64,000 nt of DNA from Deltaproteobacteria bacterium. GTDB taxonomy: Bacteria; Myxococcota_A; UBA796; GCA-2862545. A program made the translations under genes and the position numbers. Each line of letters begins with the position of its first letter. The first letter of the stretch is position 1. The notes below the pieces were generated by a model that was not told the origin of the DNA, did no database searches, and was given only the letters and a program-made list of their open reading frames with translations. The stretch is from assembly GCA_006226595.1 (NCBI GenBank), contig SBGP01000095.1, positions 1-64,000 of the forward strand, written 5' to 3'. This document shows positions 53,864 to 59,493 of the stretch, one piece after another.

Positions 53864-54166
53864 CTACATCGAGCAGTCGGCCTGACCCGCGAGATCCGGG
53901 ATCGTGCCGTCGCACTTGGCGTTGCTGCTGAGGCACTCGTAGAACGGCGTCATGTCCGTCGGATTGAGGTCGAGCGCGTCCGGGCAGTACTCGTTGGGGT
54001 CGAAGTTGATCGAGCTGGTGCACTCGAGGCTGTTGAAGTGCTCGACGTAGGCCTTGCAGGCGCCCACGTTGTCGAAGCTGCCGCCCATGCCGCCGCCGCC
54101 GCCGCCGCAGGCAAGAGAGAAGGCCAGGCCGAGTGCGGCGCCGCTGGCGAGAAGAATGGTGCGCAT
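53864..54166 (-). CDS. Small Cys-rich lipoprotein
   Basis: A 100-residue protein with signal ending LAFSLAC and then six Gly, a lipobox. The mature part has six Cys (for example VGACKAYVEHFNSLEC, EYCPD, FYECLSSNAKC, DCSM), suggesting a disulfide-stabilised helical fold. GGAGGACGACAC precedes the ATG, and TAGGCT (54189-54194) is a likely -10. Family unknown. Confidence 0.7.
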   Translation of the reverse strand: MRTILLASGAALGLAFSLACGGGGGGMGGSFDNVGACKAYVEHFNSLECTSSINFDPNEYCPDALDLNPTDMTPFYECLSSNAKCDGTIPDLAGQADCSM

Positions 54167-54265
54167 GTGTCGTCCTCCAGACTGGGGGAGCCTACCCCAG
54201 ATGATGCAGAGCGCGTGGTCGCCCCGGACAAGCACTCGTCGAGAACCCGTCCCCACAAACGAAAC

Positions 54266-54293
54266 GACCCCCGAGTCCGGAGACTCGGGGGTC
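54266..54293 (-). terminator. Intrinsic terminator, end of the candidate large RNA
   Basis: Perfect 12-base stem GACCCCCGAGTC/GACTCGGGGGTC with a UCCG loop on the minus strand, followed by GTTTCGTTTGTG on that strand. The plus strand has no T run after it. Its first ten bases equal those of the terminator at 58863-58890. Confidence 0.7.
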
Positions 54294-55995
54294 GATAGTG
54301 ACATTCGAGATGACGATGGAGAGGTCGTCTTCGCAGGTTCACGTTCCACCATGGTTGCCTTGACCGAGGTCAAAGCCGACCCTCGCGGTGTTGAGCGGAC
54401 CCTCGAGGAAGTCACCGCAAGCGGTGATTGTCCCGACTCCGTAGCAGCTCGTGTGCCTTCGCTACGTCCTCCACGTCCTTTTCGCATTGCTGCGTTGGAC
54501 CTCGAGGTTTTTCGAAGTCGGGCATACGCGTCGTTCGGTAAAACAGCGCATGCTCCCTCCTGATCTTGCCCTCACCCTCAGGGTTCTCCTTGGTAGCCGG
54601 GATGTTGCCATCCGCCTGCCATGAGATTCCTCCGCGTGAATGCCTTGCCTTCGACGTACCGACTGCGGGCCCCTTTCCCGTTGGAGCTTCCACCCTCCAA
54701 CTCGCGCTCCACATGCCTGTGAAGCGGGTGCCGCCCTCGTGGTTTCGCACCACCTCGACGGTTTGAGCCGTGCTGTCGGGCATGGGCTTGTTGCATCCCA
54801 CTGCCGAACAAGGTTCGCTGTGTTTCGGTCGTGGAGAGGCCCCTCGACCCGAAGGTCTCCTGGTCTCACACACGCGTTCCCATCAGCGCATTCACACCCT
54901 TCGAAGCTTTCCCCTCGCTGGTAGCCGTGTCGCCTCACGACGACCGTTACCTCCGCGGCGTTCGCCGAGACACTGCGCGTTGAACCGGTCTCGCGACCGA
55001 CTCTCGCCTTCAATGCTCCGACCCGGATGGCGCAGCACGCGTACGTGCCATCACCCCCCGGATGCCGGTCCCTGCTCACTCCGAAGAGTGAATCGACCCG
55101 ACATGGACCGTCGACCGACTGGCCCCGGACACCGAAGTGACCGACGCTTCCTCGACCGCATCGCGTTCCGACCTGCCGCGACCCACCGCCGCTTTCGCAG
55201 CCATGGCCCGCAGACCCTCTCACTGTCCCCGCTTTCGGCGGGCGACACCCGACACTTTCATCAGGCTCGCGCTTGGATGACGCGTCGCTTGAATCCCCGT
55301 GAAGGGCTTTCGGGAGAGAGCCGTGACCCCACCTTCGGACGTTGGCTTGCGCCACCGTACCGACCGTGGACCCACACAGCTCGCCGTGGACTTCGACGTG
55401 CGAGCACGTCGCTGTGAGCCTCTCGCAGGACCTCCATCAGCGCTGGGCATTTGATTTCTCAAATGCTGGAACCTGATTTCACATCCCTGCAAGTGGATGG
55501 GGCCAACCGTAGTCGTCCCATCCTCGCTCGACCCTGTGCGAAAGAGCCTCTCTTCCGCGCATCGCACCGACCGAGGTCGATGCACCACACCGCAGTGTGG
55601 GGCCCCACAACCCACTCCGGAGAGTGGGCCACATGATGAAGCGTTCCGCAGGCTGTGTTCTTGCTCTGCGTCGCACTCGACCGCATCGCGCTCGTACCTT
55701 CACTCTACGAGAGAGTGATGACCGAGCTGCGCGCCCTCGAGGCCTTGCTCCACCAGCGAGTCCGTTGTCTCGACCGGTCGTTGCCAACCGACCGAGACCC
55801 GTTGCTTCCCTGGGCTTGGTTCCCCTCCAGGACATCACCTATTCCTCGCTGGTGGGCTTCTCGCGAAGCCGGCCGATCCCGCATCCGATTTCCCGGGAGC
55901 CGATGGCGAGCCATCGACACCGAGCACGGAGGCGTCTGTCCGAGGAGGAAGGCTGCTGGCACCGAAGCACCGGCGGTCCTCTTGGGGTTTTTGAC

Positions 55996-56006
55996 GTTCA
56001 AAGAGC
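55996..56006 (-). promoter_or_regulatory. boxA-like antitermination element
   Basis: GCTCTTTGAAC on the minus strand resembles boxA of rRNA operons (GCTCTTTAACA). It lies about 270 bases from the presumed 5' end of the candidate RNA. Confidence 0.35.
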
Positions 56007-56298
56007 TGTTCCGACCTGCTGGACGAACCAGCTCGATGTCGGTCACACCGTCCTCGGTTGGCGATTGCCGCCCGAGTCCCGCATGTCGTGGGGACCCTAT
56101 GCGAGACCCGTGCCAACTTTGCCCGAACGATAGAACCTCGCTTTTCGGCGAATCGAATGGGAAATCCGCTTCACACCGACTTCCGGGCCAACGGCCACGA
56201 TCGCGCGCCATGGCACGCGCGAGGAAGTCCGCAGATGCACTAAACATGGGCACTTGTGCGCGGAAGTGAATTTCCGATCACAGCGTGCAGTCTGTTTC

Positions 56299-57543
56299 CT
56301 ATTCTGGAGAAGGAGCCATACCCATCAGTCGCACGCGCACGACGAGGCCACCCGACGGACGGTTCTCCGCGCTCACGGAGCCCCCGTGGAGGTCCGCCAC
56401 CTGCGCGACCAGCATGAGCCCGAGGCCCAGACCGCCCGTGGACCGCGCACGACTCCCCTCCCCGCGGAAGAACGGGTCGAACAGGTGCGGGAGATCCGCC
56501 GGGTCCACGCCTGCCCCATGATCCCGGACCTCGAACCCGCCCTCGCTCAGCGCGACCTCGACCGGCGGTGCGCCGTAGCGTGCCGCATTCGCGAGCAGGT
56601 TCACGAGCGCTCGCAGGACCAGCGCACGGTCCGCCTCGACCCAGGCTTCGCCTTCGATGCGCACGTCCTCGACCTTGGCGAGCAGCGAGGCCTCCTCGGC
56701 GAGCACCCGCAGATCCACGCTCTCTCGCTGCACCGGCGTCTCCCCGAGCTGCATGCGGGAGATGGCGAGCAGCTGGGCGATGAGGTCGTCGAGCTCTGCG
56801 AGATCGCGCTCCATCGCATCGAGACGCCCTGCGGGCGCGCCTTGATCGCGGAGCAACTCGAGCTCGAGCCGCAGCCGCGACAGCGGGGTTCGCAGCTCGT
56901 GGGACACGCCGGCGAGCAGCGCCTTCTCCCCGCGAAGCAGCTGGTCGATGCGGTCGGCCATGCGGTTGAACGAGCGCGCCATGCCCGCGAGCTCGGGAGC
57001 TCCCTGCTCTTCCAGCCGGTGGCCGAGGTCGCCCTCGGCAATGCGCTCCATCCCAGACCGAGCCGCAGCCAGGGGGCGGGTGGACACGCGACCGAGCCAG
57101 AACGCCGCGAGGAGCACGAGCAGGGCGCCCACCGCGAGCGCCAGTCCGAAGACCTGCGTCGGCCGCTCCAGATCGAGATCGCGCTCGACCACGATCCAGC
57201 CGGACGCGGTCTTCACGGCCACCGCGTTGCGCGGCCCCGGGTGAAACACGAGCACCCGACCGTCGCGCTCGATGCGGTGTGCCGGCCGGTGACCGCGACG
57301 CAGGTGCCGCTCCGGATCGGCACCCAGCGGTCGGATCTGGACCCCGAGCCCGCGACCCAGCGCCTCCGGGTCCTCCCCGGCGTCGACGCGGTCCGCAATG
57401 AACAGCGTCTCCTCCATGAACCCCTCGAACACCGCTCTACCCAGGGGATGGAGGATGCCGTGGACCGTGGTGGCCCACATCGCGAGACCCGCGAACGCGG
57501 CCAGGGCGAGGATGCCCAGACTGACTCGGGTCGACAGCCTCAC
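56299..57543 (-). CDS. Sensor histidine kinase (CpxA-like)
   Basis: A 414-residue two-span sensor. First helix ILALAAFAGLAMWATTV, a 110-residue periplasmic part, second helix (QVFGLALAVGALLVLLAAFW), HAMP (WLGRVSTRPLAAARSGMERI), H box VSHELRTPLSRLRLELELL with the phospho-His, N box VLRALVNLLANAARYG and G boxes DHGAGVDP and GGLGLGLMLV. It overlaps the response regulator gene by four bases (ATGA). With the Spy-like gene at the head of the operon this is a Cpx-type envelope-stress system. Confidence 0.92.
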   Translation of the reverse strand: MRLSTRVSLGILALAAFAGLAMWATTVHGILHPLGRAVFEGFMEETLFIADRVDAGEDPEALGRGLGVQIRPLGADPERHLRRGHRPAHRIERDGRVLVFHPGPRNAVAVKTASGWIVVERDLDLERPTQVFGLALAVGALLVLLAAFWLGRVSTRPLAAARSGMERIAEGDLGHRLEEQGAPELAGMARSFNRMADRIDQLLRGEKALLAGVSHELRTPLSRLRLELELLRDQGAPAGRLDAMERDLAELDDLIAQLLAISRMQLGETPVQRESVDLRVLAEEASLLAKVEDVRIEGEAWVEADRALVLRALVNLLANAARYGAPPVEVALSEGGFEVRDHGAGVDPADLPHLFDPFFRGEGSRARSTGGLGLGLMLVAQVADLHGGSVSAENRPSGGLVVRVRLMGMAPSPE

Positions 57544-58229
57544 CGGGGATCACGCGGCACGGTGTAGCCGACGCCGCGGACCGTCTTGACGAAGGTGGGG
57601 TCGCGGGAGTCGTCGCCGAGCTTGCGGCGAATGTGGCTCACGTGCACGTCCACGCTGCGGTCGAACGCCGCGTAGTCTTCGCCGCGCGCGAGCTCCATGA
57701 GCCGGTCACGAGGGATCACGCGTCCCGCGTTCGCAACCAGCACGCGCAGGATCTCGAACTCGGTGGTGGTGAGGTCGACCGCGACCCCATCGAGCTCCAC
57801 GACCCTCCGATCATCGTCGACGAGCAACGGACCCGCACGCAGCGCGCCCGCCGCGGATGCCGGCTGCGGGCCAGCCCGGCGAAGCACCGCCTCGATGCGG
57901 GCGACCAGCTCGCGCGGGTTGAAGGGCTTGCCGAGGTAGTCGTCGGCGCCGAGCTCGAGACCGACGATGCGGTCCATGTCGTCACCGCGGGCGGTGAGCA
58001 TGATCACCGGCACCTTCGAGAAGGCGCGCAGCTCGCGGAGGACGCCCAGCCCATCGAGGCCGGGCATCATCACGTCGAGGACGACGAGATCGGGCACGCT
58101 CGCACGCAAGGCCTCGAGGCCCGCCTGGCCATCCTCGGCGGTCACCAGGTCGAAGCCCCGCCCACCGAGGTACTCGGCGAGCAGGGTGCGGATGCGGTCG
58201 TCGTCATCGATGACCAGGATGCGTCGCAA
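57540..58229 (-). CDS. OmpR-family response regulator (CpxR-like)
   Basis: A 229-residue regulator. Receiver: ILVIDDDDRIR with the acidic pocket, LVVLDVMMPGLDG with the phospho-Asp, MLTARGDDMDR (Thr) and GKPFNPREL (Lys). C-terminal winged helix: LTTTEFEILRVLVANAGRVI, SVDVHVSHIRRKLGDD and TVRGVGYTVP. Its likely targets are the two GTGAA-N5-GTGAA boxes upstream of the Spy-like genes. It lies 27 bases after the first Spy-like gene. Confidence 0.93.
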   Translation of the reverse strand: MRRILVIDDDDRIRTLLAEYLGGRGFDLVTAEDGQAGLEALRASVPDLVVLDVMMPGLDGLGVLRELRAFSKVPVIMLTARGDDMDRIVGLELGADDYLGKPFNPRELVARIEAVLRRAGPQPASAAGALRAGPLLVDDDRRVVELDGVAVDLTTTEFEILRVLVANAGRVIPRDRLMELARGEDYAAFDRSVDVHVSHIRRKLGDDSRDPTFVKTVRGVGYTVPRDPR

Positions 58230-58256: not shown

Positions 58257-58724
58257 TCAGCGCTTGCCGAAGTGCGGATGGGGCGGTGGTCCCGCCTCGA
58301 GGTGCTCGGCGAGGAGCGCACGCTGTTCGGGGGTGAGGCTCGCCGCGAAGTCGCTGATCAAGCCGATGCCCTCGAGGTGACGCGCGTGAGCCGCCTCGGC
58401 CTCGGCGGTCGCCAGGGCCTCGAGCTTGGCGAAGTCCGGCGCGTCGGCGGTGAGCTCGGCCACGGCCGCGTCGCGGAACGCGTCGTGGGCGGCACGGCGC
58501 TCGTCGTGGGTCCCACGGAACCCGTCGAGTAGCGCGGTGAGCTCGGCAGTCTGGGCCTCGTCGAGCTCGAGGGTGGACGCGAGCATCTCGACCGGCGGGC
58601 CTCCGCGGTGATGGCCCATCGGCCCGCCGCGACGGCACTCGGCACCGTCGCCGTTGTTGGCAATCGCCGCACCCGCCATGGCGAGGGGGGCGAGGATGAG
58701 CACGGGAAGAATGAAGCGCTTCAT
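58257..58724 (-). CDS. Spy/CpxP-like periplasmic protein
   Basis: A 155-residue exported protein with signal MKRFILPVLILAPLAMAGAA and two LTxxQ-type motifs of the Spy/CpxP family (LDEAQTAELTALL; LTPEQRALLAEH). The rest is helical and charged with His-rich ends (PMGHHRGGPP, PPPHPHFGK), so metal binding is possible. CpxP inhibits the kinase and Spy acts as a chaperone. It heads the operon Spy-like, regulator, kinase. AGGAGGTCACCCC precedes the ATG. Confidence 0.85.
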   Translation of the reverse strand: MKRFILPVLILAPLAMAGAAIANNGDGAECRRGGPMGHHRGGPPVEMLASTLELDEAQTAELTALLDGFRGTHDERRAAHDAFRDAAVAELTADAPDFAKLEALATAEAEAAHARHLEGIGLISDFAASLTPEQRALLAEHLEAGPPPHPHFGKR

Positions 58725-58862: not shown

Positions 58863-58890
58863 GACCCCCGAGAATCACTCCTCGGGGGTC
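58863..58890 (-). terminator. Intrinsic terminator of the second Spy-like gene
   Basis: GACCCCCGAG/CTCGGGGGTC stem with an eight-base loop, eight bases past the stop codon, followed on the minus strand by TTTCTCGTTTTC. The best terminator in the window. Confidence 0.8.
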
Positions 58891-58897
58891 GGTGGTC

Positions 58898-59407
58898 CTA
58901 CTCGGGACGGGGGCCGCGCTTGTGGCGCTTGCCGCCCTCGAAGTCGCCGCTCTTCTCCCAGCGGCCGCCTTCGCCCTTGAACTCGCCGTGGCCACCGCGA
59001 CCGCGATGTCCCTCGCCGCGACGGGCCTGGCGCTGCTCACGCATCTCCGCGAGCTCGGCGAGCTGCTCGTCGGTGAGCACCTCGGAGAGCTCGGCGAGGT
59101 GCTCCAGGCGCAGGTAGGCAAGGTCGCGCTCGGCCTCGATCTTGGCGTCGACGTACTTCTTCAGGGCCTTCACGTTGGGCTCTCCGTCCTCCATGTCGGC
59201 CTTGATGGCCTCCTGGAGGGCTTCCCCAGCGGAGCGGACCTCCGAGCGAGCGGCCTCCATCTCGTCCTTGAAGCCGTCGACGACCGCCTGCTGTTCGGCA
59301 GTCAGGTCGAGGGCTTCGGCGAAGCGGGGGCCACCTGCACCGGCGATGGCGGTGCCGGCGAGGGCAGTGGAGAACAGGGCAGTCATGGCGATGGTCGCGA
59401 AGCGCAT
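58898..59407 (-). CDS. Second Spy/CpxP-like periplasmic protein
   Basis: A 169-residue exported protein with signal MRFATIAMTALFSTALAGTA. Motifs LTAEQQAVVDGF and LTDEQLAELAEM are LTxxQ-type; a long charged helix lies between. The tail is Gly/Arg/His-rich (RRGEGHRGRGGHGEFKGEGG) and unlike the first copy. It is a separate transcription unit: own CpxR-like box and own terminator. AGGAGG lies before the ATG. Confidence 0.82.
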   Translation of the reverse strand: MRFATIAMTALFSTALAGTAIAGAGGPRFAEALDLTAEQQAVVDGFKDEMEAARSEVRSAGEALQEAIKADMEDGEPNVKALKKYVDAKIEAERDLAYLRLEHLAELSEVLTDEQLAELAEMREQRQARRGEGHRGRGGHGEFKGEGGRWEKSGDFEGGKRHKRGPRPE

Positions 59408-59493
59408 GGGGAACCTCCTCGTTGGCTTGCACTGACGTAGACGTCCGCTGTGTTCGCCCGCTCTTTCCCCTCTCCGAAGCAATCCTTTGCCGT

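Follow-up and report, generated by a model that had tools for sequence, protein, structure and literature searches.

Results

The RNA gene and its position in the genome

The window analyzed here, a 64 kb stretch of DNA from a GC-rich genome (7.23 Mb in 117 contigs), carries on its minus strand a predicted gene for an RNA of ~1.83 kb (1829 nt) at positions 54258 to 56089. The gene is read leftwards, from a predicted start at about 56089 to the U-tract behind a terminator at about 54258, and its assignment draws on a sigma-54 promoter, a terminator, homology, covariation and the absence of coding. On its right it is flanked by a histidine kinase gene (56299-57543, minus strand) and on its left by a small ORF (53864-54166, minus strand), followed by a cytochrome P450 gene (52160-53485, minus strand). 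Positions within the query (q) used for homology searches convert to window positions as 56281 - q. The original prediction had proposed a leftward structured RNA of ~2 kb, outside the classes known to its reader, between 54266 and 56280. This reading is supported by the lack of an Rfam match, by strong covariation and by the lack of a protein family; with regard to the bounds, an RNA gene is indeed present, but the right ~190 nt (about 56090-56280) represent the promoter and an upstream site rather than RNA. To that reading, the results below add the distribution across the phylum, the presence of several copies, the promoter and an architecture of variable length.

The region had also been claimed to lack credible coding, and comparison with the nearest paralogues bears this out. 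Among the indels, 53 of 59 are not multiples of three, and the mismatches are spread evenly over the three positions, with no three-base period. When the seven longest ORFs of the region were compared with Pfam, no match at E 0.1 was obtained, so that no protein family was found that would explain the region. Together, these three results rule out a protein-coding explanation.

Stems closed by special tetraloops are concentrated on the minus strand. Between 54266 and 56280, this strand contains 35 perfect stems of at least 5 bp with a 4-nt loop, 15 of which carry special loops, i.e., GNRA (8), UNCG (6) or CUUG (1); the earlier figure of at least seven such stems was therefore conservative. The loops on the opposite strand had been described as ordinary, and special loops were found in just 2 of the 36 such stems on the plus strand, as compared to 15/35 on the minus strand. 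By chance, a mean of 1.2 special loops (sd 1.16, maximum 6) was obtained in 300 dinucleotide shuffles. The stem at 55538-55558, which reads GCGGAAGAG-AGG-CTCTTTCGC on the minus strand, includes one G-U pair, for which the plus strand has C/A; that a G-U pair keeps this stem on the minus strand alone, as previously stated, can be read directly off the sequence. The folding energy of the minus strand, relative to shuffles, corresponds to z values of -4.8 in one half and -6.0 in the other.

Domain architecture

The RNA contains a core block, C2 (54730-54830, minus strand; query 1451-1551), and a conserved block, D1 (55723-55829, minus strand; query 452-558), which is a diverged second copy of C2. 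A covariance model, R1 (102 positions, built from 15 sequences of core block C2), matches the D1 position as a second match in five loci (L048, L041, L136, L047 and L119). Between D1 and C2 lies a stem-rich domain of variable length (54966-55721, minus strand; query 560-1315), which houses many of the tetraloop stems and is ~750 nt long in this gene and ~125 nt long in the copy on contig C94 of the same genome, and larger in other copies. This domain is bordered by a 24-nt direct repeat on the minus strand (right copy 55676-55699, left copy 55151-55174; 88% identical), which is perhaps a trace of the insertion or duplication of the variable domain. Unlike some GOLLD RNAs, none of 13 loci inspected has a tRNA within the variable domain; L135 does have a tRNA, located upstream of its predicted start.

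Each RNA contains several occurrences of a hairpin module, CUCU-GAA-G...C-ANG-AGAG, distributed along its length. In some 50 homologues, a 14-mer representing one strand of the module had 159 matches on the RNA strand and 4 on the opposite strand, as compared to 23 in shuffles. Highly conserved unpaired stretches include (A)UGCAACAAG and CUUCGAAGGGUGUGAA.

Towards the 5' end, a conserved, near-palindromic block (55976-56009, minus strand; query 272-305) is GCUCUUUGACGUCAAAAACCCC-like and resembles rRNA boxA; the GCUCUUUGACGUCAAAAACCCC reading of this block was found in many homologues. In G003, the one genome with a readable rRNA leader, the leader sequence is GGTCTTTGAAATT and the RNA block is GCTCTTTGACGTC, with only TCTTTGA in common. 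The resemblance is thus partial, the sequence of this one rRNA leader being different, and boxA antitermination is a tentative candidate for the role of the 5' block. Ahead of the 16S gene, this rRNA leader (L202) contains GGTCGGTCTTTGAAATT, which may be a boxA of these bacteria and is close to, but distinct from, the RNA's 5' block.

Homologues and distribution

The genome that contains the window has further copies of the RNA gene, including a 77-81% relative whose halves lie at two contig ends (C110 and C42) and are assumed to form one gene, and the shorter, diverged copy on C94; several more copies are present in the sister species. Matches to R1 were found in 37/63 genomes of the order, 40/71 genomes of the class and 66/379 genomes sampled from the phylum, although these counts include a handful of the weakest matches (E near 0.001), which may be due to chance. 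The best match had an E-value of 3.6e-30 (E-values are rough), and nearly all matches cover all 102 positions. Genomes carry up to 6 copies, and the distribution is patchy at every level. The genomes are mostly metagenome bins. As some loci lie at contig ends, lengths and copy numbers are partial.

Covariation and secondary structure

In an alignment of 58 sequences fitted to R1, standard pairs occupy 99.4% of the 790 base-pair cells. The covariation score was 0.684, as compared to 0.188 for shuffled alignments and no more than 0.095 for controls with slid columns, i.e., the signal was lost when the partner column was slid by one to three columns; double changes numbered 170 vs 37.6 in shuffles. 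Because the 58-sequence alignment is fitted to the model and hence biased towards it, covariation was retested on an alignment made without reference to structure. For this, a home-made, R-scape-like procedure was used, in which a sequence-only MAFFT alignment and a FastTree tree were combined with 30 null alignments that redistribute the observed substitutions along the tree. Among 68 homologues aligned over ~1 kb, 20 column pairs scored above every one of the 30 phylogeny-aware nulls. Covariation among homologues, proposed earlier as a check on the RNA, is therefore strong. Eighteen of these column pairs are standard base pairs kept at 88-100%; the other two (1525-1545 and 1527-1543) are non-canonical and lie in a 3x3 internal loop.

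The significant pairs define several helices on the minus strand. A long-range helix is formed by a 5' arm, CCUUGUUCGG (54804-54813), and a 3' arm, UCGAAGGCAAGG (54643-54654), and extends across ~150 nt (query positions 1468-1477 paired with 1627-1638); its covarying pairs (1468-1638, 1473-1631, 1474-1630 and 1477-1627) are 91-100% standard and are reached in 0/30 nulls. Covariation also supports a hairpin at 54782-54801, GUGGG-AUGCAACAAG-CCCAU, with the conserved loop (A)UGCAACAAG, as well as a two-level hairpin at 54468-54507, CCUCGAGGUCC...GGACGUGGAGG, with the covarying pairs 1776-1811, 1782-1805 and 1783-1804. The hairpin at 54731-54761, CCGUC-GAG-GUGG(U)...(A)CCAC-GAG-GGCGG, consists of two helices around the covarying 3x3 internal loop, for which the loop E, kink-turn and 11-nt tetraloop receptor motifs were weighed and not adopted. 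A further helix, 1706-1725/1874-1893, has weaker covariation support in the 68-homologue alignment (E about 0.1).

Promoter, upstream dyad and terminator

A predicted sigma-54 (-24/-12) promoter, TTGGCACGGGTCTCGCAT, is located at 56099-56116 on the minus strand and differs from YTGGCACG-N4-YTGCW by 1 mismatch. A -24/-12 promoter of the form TTGGCACG-N4-YTGCA could be aligned at the 5' ends of all 9 of the 9 copies examined, and the promoter pattern YTGGCACGNNNNYTGCW, with at most one mismatch, was found upstream of 36 of 70 loci, as compared to 7 matches in 872 kb of control sequence. The copies without a recognizable sigma-54 site are mostly distant ones, the promoter being unrecognized in most of the distant families; for some copies, the available upstream sequence is too short.

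Upstream of the promoter, at 56158-56175 on the minus strand, lies the dyad TGTGAAGCGGATTTCCCA, a probable activator site that matches the consensus TGGGAA-N6-TTCCCA at 11/12 positions. Of the 35 promoters examined, 26 are preceded by a dyad that matches at 9/12 positions or more (vs 0/35 in shuffles); with few exceptions, the promoter lies 48-51 bp downstream of the dyad center. When dyad and promoter were searched as a single pattern in 67 genomes, 14 occurrences were found; 12 lie at known copies of the RNA, and the remaining two at contig ends that run into RNA-like sequence. In 19 genomes, the exact dyad has 19 sites, nearly all of which lie upstream of RNA genes. RtcR as the activator was not supported by co-occurrence (15 genomes with both the RNA and RtcR, 23 with the RNA only, 10 with RtcR only and 19 with neither). 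Two of the exceptions among the 19 sites, G046:C44:49808-49825 and G049:C7:3983-4000, are additional exact dyads, one of them a second site farther upstream of an RNA gene and the other within the 3' half of an RNA gene. The third exception, G046:C9:198-215, lies by a contig end where no RNA copy was seen and may flag a copy cut by the assembly.

The gene ends with an intrinsic terminator hairpin, GACCCCCGAGUC-UCCG-GACUCGGGGGUC, at 54266-54293 on the minus strand, which has a stem of 12 bp, is followed by GUUUCGUUUG and is found in the same place in paralogues. It had been noted that this terminator is of the same stem type as a hairpin at 58863, and the hairpins at 54266-54293 and 58863-58890 indeed have a common stem, GACCCCCGAG...CTCGGGGGTC. 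The latter hairpin is intergenic. By eye, two tandem genes at 58257-58724 and about 58898-59440 (minus strand) appear to encode small CpxP/Spy-like secreted proteins, and the pair adjoins the response regulator and kinase genes at 56299-58229. In a simple scan, for which the choices were approximate, intrinsic terminators were found at a similar place in many copies. For 26 copies with both a promoter and a terminator, predicted transcripts range from 955 to 2711 nt, with a median of ~1490.

Gene neighborhood

A simple home-made gene caller left the core within a coding gap at nearly every locus that yielded gene calls; it failed on low-GC loci, and at a few loci a called gene came near the core. 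An all-against-all comparison of neighbors identified no common neighbor genes, and no Pfam family was enriched among 78 adjacent proteins. The sister species (G001) lacks the RNA next to its orthologues of the response regulator (83% identical) and kinase (61% identical). In three genomes of another genus, the RNA locus is syntenic, with 90-95% DNA identity. The adjacent histidine kinase and P450 were considered as targets of cis regulation by the RNA; this possibility was rejected, as the homologues have unrelated neighbors and the sister-species kinase lacks the RNA. Since neighbor genes are not common to the loci, the RNA probably acts in trans. A mobile element was likewise rejected, as transposases and integrases are absent from the recurrent neighbor families. 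The RNA had no match in phage, plasmid and viral collections (the viral scan used one exact 23-base pattern) and its neighbors are ordinary chromosomal genes, arguing against a phage or plasmid origin.

Comparison with known RNA classes

An Rfam match to a known class, which had been named as an outcome that would refute the prediction, was not found: the whole window had 0 matches to the 4227 families of Rfam 15 at the gathering score, and permissive thresholds gave unrelated low scores only. The Rfam models for GOLLD, ROOL, OLE, HEARO, raiA, group I and II introns and rRNA do not match, and in 11 divergent homologous loci Rfam identified nothing but two tRNAs about 4 kb away. A group II intron was rejected given the absence of an Rfam intron match and the intergenic position of the RNA gene with its promoter and terminator. 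A description of this RNA was not found in the open literature, a scope that left most subscription journals and bioRxiv outside.

Discussion

Apart from rRNA, very few bacterial RNAs are both large and intricately folded; OLE, GOLLD and ROOL each came as a surprise, and two of the three form RNA cages. The covarying structure, the long-range helices, the lack of coding, the presence in multiple copies, the promoter, the terminators and the lack of common neighbors indicate that the RNA described here is almost certainly a real, new class of large structured RNA. It is categorically new as an RNA class; the large ornate bacterial RNA as a kind exists, and the RNA resembles this kind but joins no family within it. 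It is longer than OLE, GOLLD and ROOL, spread across a phylum and present in several copies per genome.

GOLLD is a large ornate RNA, often >800 nt (833 nt for the solved one), that is found in phages and prophages near tRNAs, and it is the largest of three ornate RNAs studied together (PMC12286853). As in GOLLD, the 3' half is conserved and the remainder is less so, with an internal stretch of variable length (PMC12286853). Unlike GOLLD, however, the RNA described here is predicted to be longer (0.96-2.7 kb), is chromosomal with a sigma-54 promoter, and gave no match in the phage, plasmid and viral collections. The likeness to ROOL consists in a large structured RNA with a variable linker (PMC12286853), whereas hosts and size are different and the Rfam ROOL model does not match. 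OLE, with ~600 nt, occurs mostly in Bacillota and has associated proteins (PMC12286853, PMC12054373). Both RNAs are chromosomal, large, ornate, structured and mostly confined to one phylum, but OLE is recognized by a partner gene nearby (OapA and others), whereas our RNA has no conserved neighbor and no Rfam match. A different kind of parallel is provided by Pxr, a small RNA of myxobacteria (~108 nt), for which a predicted sigma-54 promoter has been reported and whose homologues adjoin nla19 (PMC5568312). Both are intergenic RNAs with paralogues and predicted sigma-54 promoters, the one in the window being probably myxobacterial as well, and control of this type thus has a myxobacterial precedent at ~108 nt (PMC5568312); the RNA in the window exceeds Pxr in length by a factor of roughly ten or more and is tied to no single locus.

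Our guess is that the RNA, synthesized in response to a sigma-54 signal, most likely plays a structural role, forms multimers or binds protein. A structural role is favored because the long-range helices, modules, tetraloops and variable domain resemble OLE, GOLLD and ROOL more than regulatory sRNAs. In such a scheme, arrival of a signal would cause an activator of the sigma-54 type to bind the dyad, and sigma-54 RNA polymerase would then synthesize an RNA of ~1.8 kb ending at the terminator. This RNA would fold into an rRNA-like multi-domain body from the repeated CUCU-GAA-G.../...C-ANG-AGAG module and the tetraloop hairpins, with the long variable domain behaving like an expansion segment, and it could act in trans as a structural RNA, either by homo-oligomerizing or by collecting protein copies on the repeated module. 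That it would assemble, by itself or with protein, into a large particle, as a cellular rather than phage-borne equivalent of the cages of GOLLD and ROOL, is a tentative and rather doubtful extension. Taken as a single statement, the combination of a new large RNA class, a sigma-54 switch and a trans-acting structural role may be right or wrong with about equal probability.

Several other explanations deserve consideration. The repeated module could represent a binding site, such that the RNA, once induced through sigma-54, would titrate a regulator in the manner of CsrB/RsmY-type RNAs at a larger scale. Such a sponge is consistent with a recurrent module that is present several times per RNA and is strongly strand-specific, and with a promoter that is probably inducible; on the other hand, a sponge would need neither long-range helices nor deep covariation, and the order of the core goes well beyond that of a series of sites, making this role unlikely. 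It is also conceivable that the rRNA- or intron-like complexity reflects chemistry, i.e., that the RNA is a ribozyme or has a catalytic core. Whereas the highly conserved unpaired stretches (A)UGCAACAAG and CUUCGAAGGGUGUGAA and the covarying non-canonical pairs would fit such a function, the RNA is intergenic with its own promoter and terminator, interrupts no gene, has no partner ORF and matches no intron or ribozyme in Rfam, and catalysis thus appears quite improbable.

The patchy occurrence among related genomes, with up to 6 copies, the orthologous locus without the RNA in the sister species and the direct repeat that borders the variable domain could suggest a selfish or accessory element that has the RNA as its product and spreads by duplication and transfer. 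We consider this very unlikely, given that the recurrent neighbor families are without integrases or transposases, that no tRNA attachment pattern and no phage, plasmid or viral match was found, and that the locus is syntenic in three genomes of one genus with 90-95% identity. While GC-rich sequence folds readily, an rRNA remnant, a decayed intron or chance GC-rich hairpins are already refuted, with next to no probability left, by the absence of matches to the Rfam LSU, SSU and intron models, by covariation beyond the phylogenetic null and by the dedicated promoter.

The RNA has a recognizable switch, a sigma-54 promoter with a dyad that occurs almost nowhere else in the genomes searched; with this switch located at the RNA genes, the role of these RNAs is directly testable. 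The hosts comprise many deltaproteobacterial genomes and are probably myxobacterial; those relatives of the window's genome that bear names are metagenome bins labeled deltaproteobacterial or proteobacterial, from which the phylum is presumed to be Myxococcota. A match in a bin labeled Opitutae (L071, CAIPZZ010000150.1) was rejected as a member, as it is a chance match to one hairpin only; this sequence has some DNA in common with L146 and may be misbinned. In addition, a public record labeled Klebsiella pneumoniae (L068, CAMASI010000038.1) carries the RNA as in G005, which belongs to the family of the window, and the label of this record therefore looks wrong.
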